Of a stretch of 64,000 nt of DNA, positions 2,916 to 11,769 are shown piece by piece (positions within the stretch are counted from its first letter, which is position 1; every line of letters starts with the position of its first letter). The notes under the pieces were generated by a model. It did not search any database and was not told the DNA's origin. It worked only from the letters and a program-made list of their open reading frames with translations. The stretch is from positions 1,550,001-1,614,000 of the forward strand of contig NZ_CP096199.1 in NCBI RefSeq assembly GCF_023195835.1, given 5' to 3'. This DNA comes from Vibrio sinaloensis. Its GTDB lineage: Bacteria; Pseudomonadota; Gammaproteobacteria; Enterobacterales; Vibrionaceae. A program made the position numbers and the translations under genes.

Positions 2916-3389
2916 TTATGCCTTGATAGCGTGTGAATTAAGCAGCTTTTCTACTTCACTCATCAAAAACGTTAACCCCTGCTCATCGATTTCACTAAAT
3001 CGCCCAACATGAGGACTGTCGATATCGAGTACGCCAGCGACTTCCCCACCAATCGAGAACGGAATCACAAGTTCTGAGTTGCTTTCTGCATCACAAGCGA
3101 TGTGACCTTCAAACTGATGGACATCATAGATACGCTGCACGCTGTTGGTCGACACCGCAGTCCCGCACACCCCTCGCCCTACCGGAATACGCACACAAGC
3201 AGGTTTACCTTGGAACGGGCCCAATACTAACTCGCCTTCTTTCATTAGGTAAAAACCCACCCAGTTAAGTCCCTCTAATTCCATATTCAATAAAGAACTT
3301 ATATTAGATAAGTTAGCAATGAGATCAGACTCAGATTCGATTAATGCGATGACTTGTTTGGTTAAGCGTTGATACTGTTCTATTTTCAT
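2916..3389 (-). CDS. msrC: Free methionine-(R)-sulfoxide reductase (GAF domain)
   Basis: A single-GAF-domain protein of 157 residues that reduces free Met-R-sulfoxide in the cytoplasm with thioredoxin. Three cysteines at C65, C75 and C99 have exactly the 10 and 24 residue spacing of the catalytic cysteines C84/C94/C118 of the E. coli enzyme. The motif GRGVCGTA is characteristic. It sits upstream of proQ on the same strand and is divergent from the ABC exporter. The gene order msrC-proQ-prc is the conserved Enterobacteria/Vibrio arrangement (E. coli yebR-proQ-prc). Confidence 0.95.
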   Translation of the reverse strand: MKIEQYQRLTKQVIALIESESDLIANLSNISSLLNMELEGLNWVGFYLMKEGELVLGPFQGKPACVRIPVGRGVCGTAVSTNSVQRIYDVHQFEGHIACDAESNSELVIPFSIGGEVAGVLDIDSPHVGRFSEIDEQGLTFLMSEVEKLLNSHAIKA

Positions 3390-9278: not shown

Positions 9279-10703
9279 GTGCACCAAAATGTTTATCTCC
9301 CCCCGGCCTTTTTAGAGCAAATCGAGCAGATTCTGCCAGACCACCTCAATATGGGGGATTTTGTTGCAGCCTGCCAACGCCCATTGCGCAAGAGTATTCG
9401 CGTCAATACGTTAAAGATTTCAGTGTCGGAGTTCATGCAACGAGCGGCGGTCAAAGGCTGGGTTCTTGAACCTGTGCCTTGGTGTGACGAAGGCTTTTGG
9501 ATAGAAGCCGATGAATCTCTCGTTCCTCTCGGTAATACCGCAGAACACATGTCGGGGCTGTTTTATATTCAAGAAGCCAGTTCAATGATGCCAGTGTCTG
9601 CGCTATTTCAAGCGCAAGACCACGAAGCGACGTCGGTTTTAGATATGGCCGCAGCGCCAGGTTCAAAATCTACTCAAATTGCCGCAAAGATGGGTAACCA
9701 TGGCATTTTGGTTGCTAATGAGTTTGCTGCGAGTCGAGTCAAAGTACTGCATGCCAATATCGAGCGTTGTGGTGTACGGAACACGGCACTGAGTAACTTC
9801 GATGGCCGAGTCTTTGGCGGATGGCTTCCAGAGCAGTTTGATGCCGTGTTGATTGACGCTCCTTGCTCAGGAGAAGGGACCGTTCGAAAAGACGCAGATG
9901 CGATGAAAAACTGGAGTAAAGAGTCCGTCATTGAGATCGCAAATACACAAAAAGACCTGATTGAAAGTGCGTTCCACGCGCTAAAGCCAGGTGGCGTGAT
10001 GGTTTACTCCACATGTACATTGAGTGTTGAGGAGAACCAGCAGGTGTGCCACCACCTAAAAGAGACTTTTTCTGATTGCGTTGAGTTTGAAAGTTTACAC
10101 GACCTTTTCCCCAACGCTAAGGACGCGCTGACAGAAGAAGGTTTTTTACATATTTTCCCGCAAGTCTATGACTGTGAGGGCTTTTTTGTTGCACGAATTC
10201 GCAAAACTGCGTCAGCACCTGCCCCTAAAGTTAAAAAGCGCCTAGGTAAGTTTCCATTTGAAAAAGCAAGTGCAAAGCTCGCTCAAGACGTGACAGAGCA
10301 ACTGAAAAAGACGCTCGATATTGAACTTCCCGAGAATTCATCACTTTGGATAAGAGACAAAGATGTATGGTTGTTTCCAAACGCGTTGGAGCCAATGCTC
10401 GGCGAACTAAGGTTCTCTCGTATGGGGATAAAAATCGCTGAAACCCATAAGAAAGGGTATCGCTGGCAACATCAAGTCGCCACGGCACTAGCCAACGGTA
10501 GTGAGCAAAACACGGTAGCACTTTGTGTTGACGACGCACGCGAGTGGTTTATGGGAAGAGACGTCAGACCAGATGGCCTTAGCGGCAGTGGAGAGGTGAT
10601 AGTGACCTTTGATAACGATGTGATTGGATTAGGAAAGTGGGTCGGAAACCGAGTGAAAAATGGTCTGCCTAGAGAGCTGGTTAGAGACAAAAACTTGTTT
10701 TGA
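9279..10703 (+). CDS. rsmF: 16S rRNA (cytosine-1407-C5) methyltransferase RsmF
   Basis: A 474-residue member of the NOL1/NOP2/Sun RNA m5C methyltransferase family, close to E. coli RsmF (YebU) in its start ([16 protein letters not shown]). The SAM-binding motif is [12 protein letters not shown]. The two conserved cysteines lie in DAPCSGEG (about C197) and STCTLS (about C247), matching helper and catalytic Cys of the E. coli enzyme. A C-terminal PUA-like region follows. The start is a GTG with no strong Shine-Dalgarno; it was chosen because it yields the family N-terminus. letB-rsmF order matches E. coli yebT-yebU. Confidence 0.95.
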
Positions 10704-10759: not shown

Positions 10760-10766
10760 CTACAAT
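10760..10766 (+). promoter_or_regulatory. Putative -10 element of the SdsR-like RNA, sigma-S-like
   Basis: CTACAAT lies about seven bases before the expected RNA 5' end. The leading C of an extended C-T-A-C element fits sigma-S promoters, and E. coli sdsR is strictly sigma-S dependent. No good -35 TTGACA is present, which also fits. The assignment is inferred. Confidence 0.4.
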
Positions 10767-10772
10767 GTAATA

Positions 10773-10868
10773 GTAGACAGGCATTGAATATCAAGTAATT
10801 AGCGCAGGCTCTATGAGAGCCCTTCCCCTAGGCCCAAAGCAGGATCAGCATTGGGCCTTTTTTTTTGG
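10773..10868 (+). ncRNA. sdsR: SdsR (RyeB)-like small regulatory RNA
   Basis: This intergenic stretch of about 96 nt matches the remembered E. coli SdsR in its 3' two thirds: the box TTAGCGCA, then a short hairpin GGCTCT-ATG-AGAGCC (10807-10821), then a single-stranded TTCCCCT, then a terminator hairpin AGGCCCAA / TTGGGCCT ending in nine T (10830-10868). E. coli SdsR has the same TTAGCGCA, GGCTCT...AGAGCC, TTTCCCTGG order and is 104 nt long. Location also fits: in E. coli sdsR lies shortly downstream of yebU (rsmF). SdsR is an Hfq-binding stationary-phase RNA that represses porins and mismatch-repair mRNA in enterobacteria. The exact 5' end is an estimate; targets here are unknown. Confidence 0.75.
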
Positions 10869-10935: not shown

Positions 10936-11769
10936 CTAACTTAGGCGGATACCTTCCCCATCAATCACGATCTTACCTTGTTTGTACAAACCACCAATCG
11001 TCTTCTTAAAGGTACCTTTGCTGGTTCTAAATGCAGCGAAGATGGCTTCTGGACTCGATTTATCATTCAGAGGCAGAAAGCCCCCTTTCTTTTCCAGCAA
11101 ATCCATGACTTTTTGACTTAAATCGTCCATCTTACCGACACCGATTTTTTGCAATGAAAGATCTATCTTGCCGTCATCACGAATGTTTTTAATGTAGCCT
11201 TTCAGTCGCTTGCCGACAAACAGCTTACCAAACACGTCGGACTTAAAGATCATGCCCCAGTGCTCACCTTCAACAATGGCCTTGTAGCCTAGCTCGCTTC
11301 GCTCAGCAATAATCAGGTCAACTTGTTGATTTTTAGTGTAGTTCGCCGGAGTCTTGTCCAGTAGCTTGTTGAACTTCGTCGTACCGACAATGCGCCCAGA
11401 GGCTTTGTCGATATACACATAGACGAGAACCGATTGCCCTTCAGAGAAGCGGCTGCGCTGTTCACTAAACGGGATAAGTAGGTCTTTCTCTTTGATACCC
11501 CAGTCGGCGAAGGCGCCTGTTGAGTTGATACCCTGAATTTTCATCAGGCCCCATTCGCCTACTTGCGCGATCGGGGTTTCAGTTGTGGCGACGAGCTGAC
11601 TGTCAGAGTCGAAGTATAAAAATGCATCTAGGTGAGCACCAACATCGGTTCCTTCCGGAACATAACGATTGGGTAATAGGGCTGTGCCATAGTCACCTGC
11701 ATCAAGAAATACGCCGAAACCGGCCTTTTTCACAACTTCTAAGTGGTTTATCTGACCAACTTTAATCAT
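10936..11769 (-). CDS. CvfB-like S1-domain RNA-binding protein
   Basis: A 277-residue protein of the CvfB/YitL family: N-terminal S1-like OB folds (residues about 1-60 and 65-130), a canonical S1 domain (GYIKNIRDDGKIDLSLQ, about 140-215) and a C-terminal winged-helix (FRTSKGTFKKTIGGLYKQGKI, with the turn at about 245-270). The family member in Staphylococcus affects RNA stability and virulence gene expression; the Vibrio protein has no defined role known to me. It is transcribed towards the SdsR-like RNA and divergent from the next gene with 48 bp between starts. Confidence 0.88.
   Translation of the reverse strand: MIKVGQINHLEVVKKAGFGVFLDAGDYGTALLPNRYVPEGTDVGAHLDAFLYFDSDSQLVATTETPIAQVGEWGLMKIQGINSTGAFADWGIKEKDLLIPFSEQRSRFSEGQSVLVYVYIDKASGRIVGTTKFNKLLDKTPANYTKNQQVDLIIAERSELGYKAIVEGEHWGMIFKSDVFGKLFVGKRLKGYIKNIRDDGKIDLSLQKIGVGKMDDLSQKVMDLLEKKGGFLPLNDKSSPEAIFAAFRTSKGTFKKTIGGLYKQGKIVIDGEGIRLS

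Follow-up and report, generated by a model that had tools for sequence, protein, structure and literature searches.

Comparative evidence for an SdsR (RyeB) orthologue behind rsmF in Vibrio sinaloensis

SdsR, also called RyeB, is a well-studied stress RNA of enteric bacteria. The SdsR/SraC pair of E. coli has been proposed to be a toxin-antitoxin system in which repression of yhcB is the toxic effect (excerpts of PMC6610125, PMC8687705 and PMC8163987), and conserved synteny with yebY is cited for the gene (excerpt of PMC5913331). E. coli small RNAs with known targets that are found outside Enterobacteriales have also been considered (excerpt of PMC4114697). From Vibrio, svpa1713.1 (RyeB) appears among the V. 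parahaemolyticus database small RNAs, taken from BSRD, with a lower identity in non-pandemic strains (excerpt of PMC6601013), while SdsR and several other E. coli small RNAs are described as not having been reported in V. fischeri (excerpt of PMC6299092). Our literature search, whose coverage is incomplete and is no proof of absence, turned up no experimental work on SdsR from any Vibrio.

Here we describe an SdsR gene in a stretch of 64,000 nucleotides from Vibrio sinaloensis (the window; positions 1,550,001 to 1,614,000 of contig NZ_CP096199.1). As RyeB of V. parahaemolyticus is already in print, at least as far as the excerpt goes, we present the gene as an orthologue rather than as a discovery. 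Vibrio SdsR is an ordinary orthologue of a known family.

Identity, structure and predicted promoter of the RNA

The Rfam covariance model SdsR_RyeB (RF00111) matches the window at 10765-10864, scoring 61.4 bits where the gathering threshold is 38. All model positions, 1-100, are covered, and the E value is 7.3e-9 for a search of the whole window against 4227 Rfam families. This was the check that an earlier note, made from the sequence alone, had proposed for its claim of an SdsR-like RNA directly after rsmF, and the claim passed it. Given this score and E value, the stretch 10773-10866 is not a chance resemblance, a reading that the spread across genomes described below also rules out. The 4.17-Mb genome, in two contigs, holds a single RF00111 copy. 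Plasmid and phage records searched with the model at E 0.01 gave no hit, and we have rejected an origin from either. We are highly confident that SdsR (RyeB), an Hfq-type small RNA that acts in trans, has its Vibrio orthologue at 10773-10866 on the plus strand.

The gene is about 94 nt long (10773..10866, plus strand) and begins 69 nt past the end of the rsmF ORF (9279..10703, plus strand). That this upstream neighbour is rsmF, as the earlier note had it, is borne out by the RsmF equivalog NF008898 (NCBIfam), which scores 801.9 bits against a cut-off of 588. The convergent neighbour (10936..11769, minus strand) encodes an S1-domain protein that we take to be CvfB-like; an NCBIfam search with this protein gave no match. 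Among the 80 named loci listed, the closest is that of Vibrio sp. JPW-9-11-11, where RsmF is 89% and the convergent neighbour 95% identical. All the motifs named in the earlier note are present in 10760-10868. The 5' end of the RNA, at about 10773-10775, was placed from the position of the predicted -10 element, and the RF00111 model begins a few bases before it, between the -10 and the start; the 3' end is the T-run. A variable 5' third (10773..10798) is followed by the first conserved pairing segment, TTAGCGCA (10799..10806), which is partly paired in the predicted fold. Hairpin 1 (10807..10821, GGCTCT-ATG-AGAGCC) comes next, with its arms at 10807-10812 and 10816-10821, and then the linker CTTCCCCT (10822..10829), the second conserved pairing segment, which is predicted to be open and of which a TTCCC stretch stays in diverged loci. 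The RNA ends in an intrinsic terminator (10830..10866) with a stem at 10830-10857 and a T-run of nine bases at 10858-10866. This terminator probably also ends read-through from rsmF.

The structure was compared across relatives. All 51 loci located were covariance-model hits; 43 were aligned with MAFFT, and hairpin 1 and the terminator stem were written by hand. Across the 43 loci 93.6% of the cells were paired, against 77.3% in shuffles and 20-48% when the partners were slid. The covariation score was 0.489, compared with 0.185 in shuffles (none of 500 reached 0.489) and 0.059-0.123 after sliding. Two-sided changes occurred in 11 of the 16 pairs (shuffle mean 8.3; 12 of 500 shuffles reached 11), a count biased in favour of this structure, since the model used to locate the loci scores it and it was itself written by hand from these sequences. 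Most of the covariation signal came from the terminator stem, with two-sided changes in nine of ten pairs and 94.4% of the cells paired. Hairpin 1 is conserved mainly in sequence (two of six pairs; 92.2%). The earlier note would have given up its reading if the hairpins were not conserved in related genomes; they are kept, the terminator above all.

Within TTAGCGCA the bases T-A-G (2-4) and the last A are invariant in the alignment, C and G (bases 5 and 6) reach 90%, and the first T and the seventh base fall below 90%. In the predicted ensemble the mean unpaired probability is 0.43-0.48 for the UUAGCGCA segment, which is thus about half open, and 0.93-0.95 for the CUUCCCCU linker, which is open. 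The RNA therefore has the two stem-loops, supported by covariation, and the open CU-rich linker of SdsR/RyeB. The fold energy of 10773-10866 did not differ significantly from the shuffled background (z -1.19, equalled by 29 of 200 shuffles), and we dropped fold stability as evidence for SdsR. A simple terminator scan of the sequence did not pick up 10830-10866. As the fold is unremarkable and the scan missed the terminator, the evidence for the RNA rests on the covariance model and the comparative data.

Sigma-S prefers a -10 element of the CTAYACT type. The sequence CTACAAT at 10760..10766 (plus strand) is a predicted -10 element of this kind, as the earlier note had suggested, and similar elements recur in relatives. 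When the 90 bases before the core were searched with a loose matcher, a CTAYACT-like -10 was present in 31 of the 51 covariance-model loci, where base shuffles predict 4.2, and a full match was absent in the other 20. Among the matches listed in a pattern scan of named genomes, 66 of 118 loci had such an element (11.8 expected), mostly 31-55 bases before the core. The genome encodes both RpoS and Hfq, above curated cut-offs. The recurrent element and the presence of RpoS and Hfq make sigma-S control of Vibrio SdsR likely, as judged from sequence; sigma-70 can use such a -10 as well.

Spread, position and loss within the order

RF00111 matched 195 of 394 genomes in an even draw from the order of the window at E <= 0.001, and 181 of these were over the family cut-off; the matches fall in 54 of 114 genera, and 12 family handles are represented among the matching genomes. 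A class-wide draw gave three of 369 genomes, all three inside the same order. Both draws were run with Infernal's stricter filters, with which weak matches are lost. Within the genus, 26 of the 31 other genomes listed have a match. The pattern scan of named genomes returned at least 120 stretches; the 80 with names, among the matches listed, come from Vibrio, Photobacterium, Enterovibrio, Shewanella, Pseudoalteromonas, Alteromonas, Idiomarina, Rheinheimera, Oceanimonas, Edwardsiella, Erwinia, Pantoea and others. As the pattern fixes the core, these loci cannot measure its conservation. The spread across the order indicates that SdsR is older than the split between Vibrio and the enteric bacteria, in line with the proposal in the earlier note that the RNA predates the split of these families. 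Two single loci are recorded here for themselves. Zobellella taiwanensis has two tandem SdsR copies about 550 bases apart (L161, 63-95 and 615-647), alike in the stretches compared around the core, and a 1.1-Mb genome in f19, the family handle of the E. coli-like genomes, keeps an SdsR-like RNA of 68.9 bits (L053, 3029-3097).

The position relative to rsmF varies between families. With flanks of mostly 3 kb (1.5 kb for our own locus), 27 of the 41 covariance-model loci have rsmF immediately upstream and in the same direction: 12/14 in family f1, 4/4 in f6, 4/4 in f10, 3/3 in f16, 3/3 in f21, 1/3 in f25, 0/6 in f7, 0/1 in f11 and 0/3 in f19. The same arrangement was seen in 23 of the 61 named pattern loci with enough upstream sequence, among the matches listed. 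By genus, and again among the matches listed, rsmF is upstream in all the Vibrio (6), Photobacterium (7), Shewanella (5) and Pseudoalteromonas (2) loci examined and in none of the Alteromonas (5), Rheinheimera (4), Idiomarina (3) or Oceanimonas (2) loci. In the family to which the E. coli-like genomes belong, one genome (L021) also has rsmF upstream and co-directional, and the CvfB-like convergent gene stands beside SdsR in all 14 loci compared in the window's own family.

The earlier note had also placed the gene in the same neighbourhood as in E. coli. This holds in part: both genes lie near the 3' end of rsmF, but in E. coli W2-5 sdsR is found between yebY and pphA, on the strand opposite to rsmF, with pphA, yebW and yebV between sdsR and rsmF. 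The Vibrio locus is flanked by rsmF and the convergent CvfB-like gene, not by yebY or pphA. As the position differs between families of the order, we did not treat the yebY/pphA site as defining. The simplest reading is that the RNA stood behind rsmF in a common ancestor and was later moved in several lineages; the co-directional position is probably the older one.

SdsR is dispensable, since five of the 31 congeners are without it though all five encode RpoS and Hfq. A looser whole-genome search of these five (E up to 1, a level at which unrelated control genomes also give matches) found nothing over the cut-off and only chance-level matches, the best of 25.4 bits in G065 and none in G083. 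Behind rsmF, G352 (L074, about 2922-3140) has kept a -10-like CTATACTT element, TTCCCCTA and the terminator and has lost the part with TTAGCGCA and the hairpin. The same stretch holds only a plain terminator-like hairpin in G065 and nothing like SdsR in G387, G083 or G229. Reduced forms also occur. Three f2 genomes and one f17 genome have mainly the TTCCC linker and the terminator behind rsmF, yet they score over the RF00111 cut-off (L078, 40.9 bits; L079, 40; L080, 39.9; L083, 44), and an f6 genome with the same type of remnant (L077) falls below it, at 34.3 bits. In all six diverged loci (L074, L077, L078, L079, L080 and L083) TTCCC stays before the terminator, and the part with TAGCGCA and the hairpin is unrecognisable. 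Thus, the linker and the terminator seem to outlast hairpin 1. RpoS was found in all ten of the genomes with losses or reduced forms that were tested, and also in our own (11 of 11); a joint loss of SdsR and RpoS was not seen.

The 5' third varies from one lineage to another. Compared by eye, 10773-10798 has little in common with the enteric SdsR, as the earlier note had said of it, and contains no CTCC-type segment. Other lineages have segments of their own here, also read by eye: CTTCTCCC or CTCTCCC recurs in Alteromonas and relatives (L105, L112, L121, L134, L144, L164 and L170) and in Pseudoalteromonas (L116 and L159), and ATCTCCATTTA or a near form is found in Photobacterium and Enterovibrio (L093, L099, L111 and L165; L107 departs). 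These segments are anti-Shine-Dalgarno-like and lineage-specific, and are absent from the SdsR of the window.

Alternative readings and predicted targets

Two other readings of the locus deserve attention. The stretch 10773-10866 might be merely the terminator region, or 3' UTR, of rsmF, without an RNA of its own function. It does begin 69 nt past the rsmF ORF on the same strand and end in a hairpin and T-run, and G065, the congener without SdsR, shows that a plain terminator-like hairpin can stand behind rsmF. A mere rsmF terminator, however, would not keep UUAGCGCA and UUCCCCU. Moreover, the core (TAGCGCA..GGCTC..GAGCC.TTCCCCT) also occurs away from rsmF, in all five Alteromonas, four Rheinheimera and four Pseudidiomarina loci with enough upstream sequence among the matches listed; a promoter-like element precedes it in many loci; and in E. 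coli the family is represented by a small RNA whose start has been mapped (excerpt of PMC6610125). We consider the 3' UTR reading very improbable.

According to the other reading, an RNA of the SraC/RyeA type is also made from the minus strand, and SdsR is mainly one half of an antisense, toxin-antitoxin pair as proposed for E. coli. RF00101 (SraC/RyeA) does match the minus strand at 10868-10745, with 40.6 bits against 37. However, the sequence behind this score is that of SdsR itself, read on the opposite strand, while the end that is specific to SraC aligns poorly, and in four diverged loci RF00101 does not reach its cut-off (28.3-36.2 bits). A weak scan that had missed the terminator too found no sigma-70-like site on the minus strand between the right end of the RNA and 11100. 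The yhcB pairing predicted for the E. coli-like genome is, furthermore, not predicted here. A minus-strand SraC thus has no support beyond the sequence that it has in common with SdsR, and nothing here supports a toxin-antitoxin role in Vibrio. We believe that this reading is unlikely, though it is less remote than the previous one; we would not annotate an antisense RNA on this basis, and we prefer an SdsR that acts in trans.

From its membership in the family, Vibrio SdsR is probably a repressor that depends on Hfq, is driven by sigma-S and uses UUAGCGCA and UUCCCCU for pairing. We propose that RNA polymerase with sigma-S would start at about 10773 in stationary phase or under stress and that transcription would stop at the terminator at 10830-10866. 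The RNA of about 94 nt would then be held by Hfq at its 3' U-run, and the two segments that flank hairpin 1 may pair with target mRNAs near their start sites, leading to a block of translation or to mRNA decay. We infer expression, sigma-S dependence, Hfq binding and targets of Vibrio SdsR.

The pairing with yhcB was compared in 29 genomes with short SdsR segments and the cognate yhcB. In G386, an E. coli-like genome, yhcB begins with GGGAAUAUGCGCUAA, which by our prediction could pair with both segments at once with hairpin 1 looped out; our own genome has UUGGAUUUAUGCCCUAG at the corresponding place. The predicted energy of segment 1 with yhcB is -13.4 kcal/mol in G386 (6 of 200 shuffles as good) and -8.2 kcal/mol in our genome, where the shuffle mean is -7.6 and 70 of 200 are as good. 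The site fits the cognate SdsR in only three of the 29 genomes, G386 (6/200), G010 (0/200) and, more weakly, G018 (14/200), none of which is a Vibrio. The lowest values among Vibrionaceae were 9/200 in G199, at another site, and 23/200 in G307. Even in the family of G386 the match is patchy, since two other genomes there lack it (G286, 117/200; G097, 70/200). With a good match in three of 29 genomes only, yhcB does not look like a conserved target of SdsR by predicted short-segment pairing. The suggestion of the earlier note that the targets may differ gains some support, limited to this predicted loss of fit at yhcB. Vibrio SdsR probably regulates a set of mRNAs that differs from the one in E. 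coli, with yhcB a poor predicted partner.

Searches for other targets gave no conserved candidate. A joint two-segment site (GGGAAN{0,6}TGCGCTA) had 31 matches in 21 genomes against 32 for the reversed control. For AGGGGAAG before ATG there were 57 matches against 37 for the control in five genomes; the 42 loci looked at, some of them the same match twice, cover part of the 57. Two of these matches recur, one in an internal coding stretch in three genomes, presumably of flgB, and one in a second gene in two genomes, which we take to be a transporter permease. Neither is conserved enough to be put forward as a target.

Significance and comparison with known systems

With firm comparative evidence, these results extend a well-studied stress RNA of enteric bacteria to Vibrio and date it before the split of the order's families. 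The core, the promoter type and the terminator have been kept; the 5' end, the position and the yhcB site have not. As these parts can now be told apart, the question of the ancestral targets becomes directly testable in a harmless marine species. We regard three results as useful additions: the boundary of the family at the order, the co-directional position behind rsmF, which is probably the older one, and the poor match at yhcB. Two points are new in a modest way: the core appears, from predicted pairing, to be older than the yhcB target site, and the 5' third depends on lineage.

We also put forward, tentatively and as a possibility that we would not yet favour, a history of the family. 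SdsR may have had a single origin, next to rsmF, in the order's ancestor (Vibrio, Shewanella, Alteromonas-like bacteria and enterics), and its two-segment core around hairpin 1 may have been held for an ancestral set of targets. The yhcB pairing behind the 'toxin' role in E. coli would then be a late enteric addition, and the 5' third an exchangeable module, remade in several marine lineages as a CU-rich pairing segment of their own.

Among described RNAs, svpa1713.1 (RyeB) of V. parahaemolyticus is another Vibrio's RyeB and presumably an orthologue of the RNA described here, likened to it here by its description; the excerpt of PMC6601013 gives only its presence and its sequence variation among strains. 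SraC/RyeA (RF00101) occupies the same DNA as SdsR on the other strand and belongs to the same Rfam clan, but it has a specific end and a promoter of its own, and we saw no sign of either here (the promoter scan being weak). The RNA of V. sinaloensis differs from SdsR of E. coli and Salmonella in several respects. Its 5' third is unrelated, TTAGCGCA abuts GGCTCT with no base between them whereas the enteric rows have a C or an A there, and the linker reads TTCCCCT rather than TTTCCCT. It is co-directional with rsmF, unlike sdsR of E. coli W2-5, and its yhcB site is predicted to be degraded relative to that of the E. coli-like genome. Common to both are the TTAGCGCA core, the GGCTC/GAGCC hairpin, the UUYCC linker and the terminator, together with a sigma-S-type -10 element, membership in an order-wide family and a site near the 3' end of rsmF.
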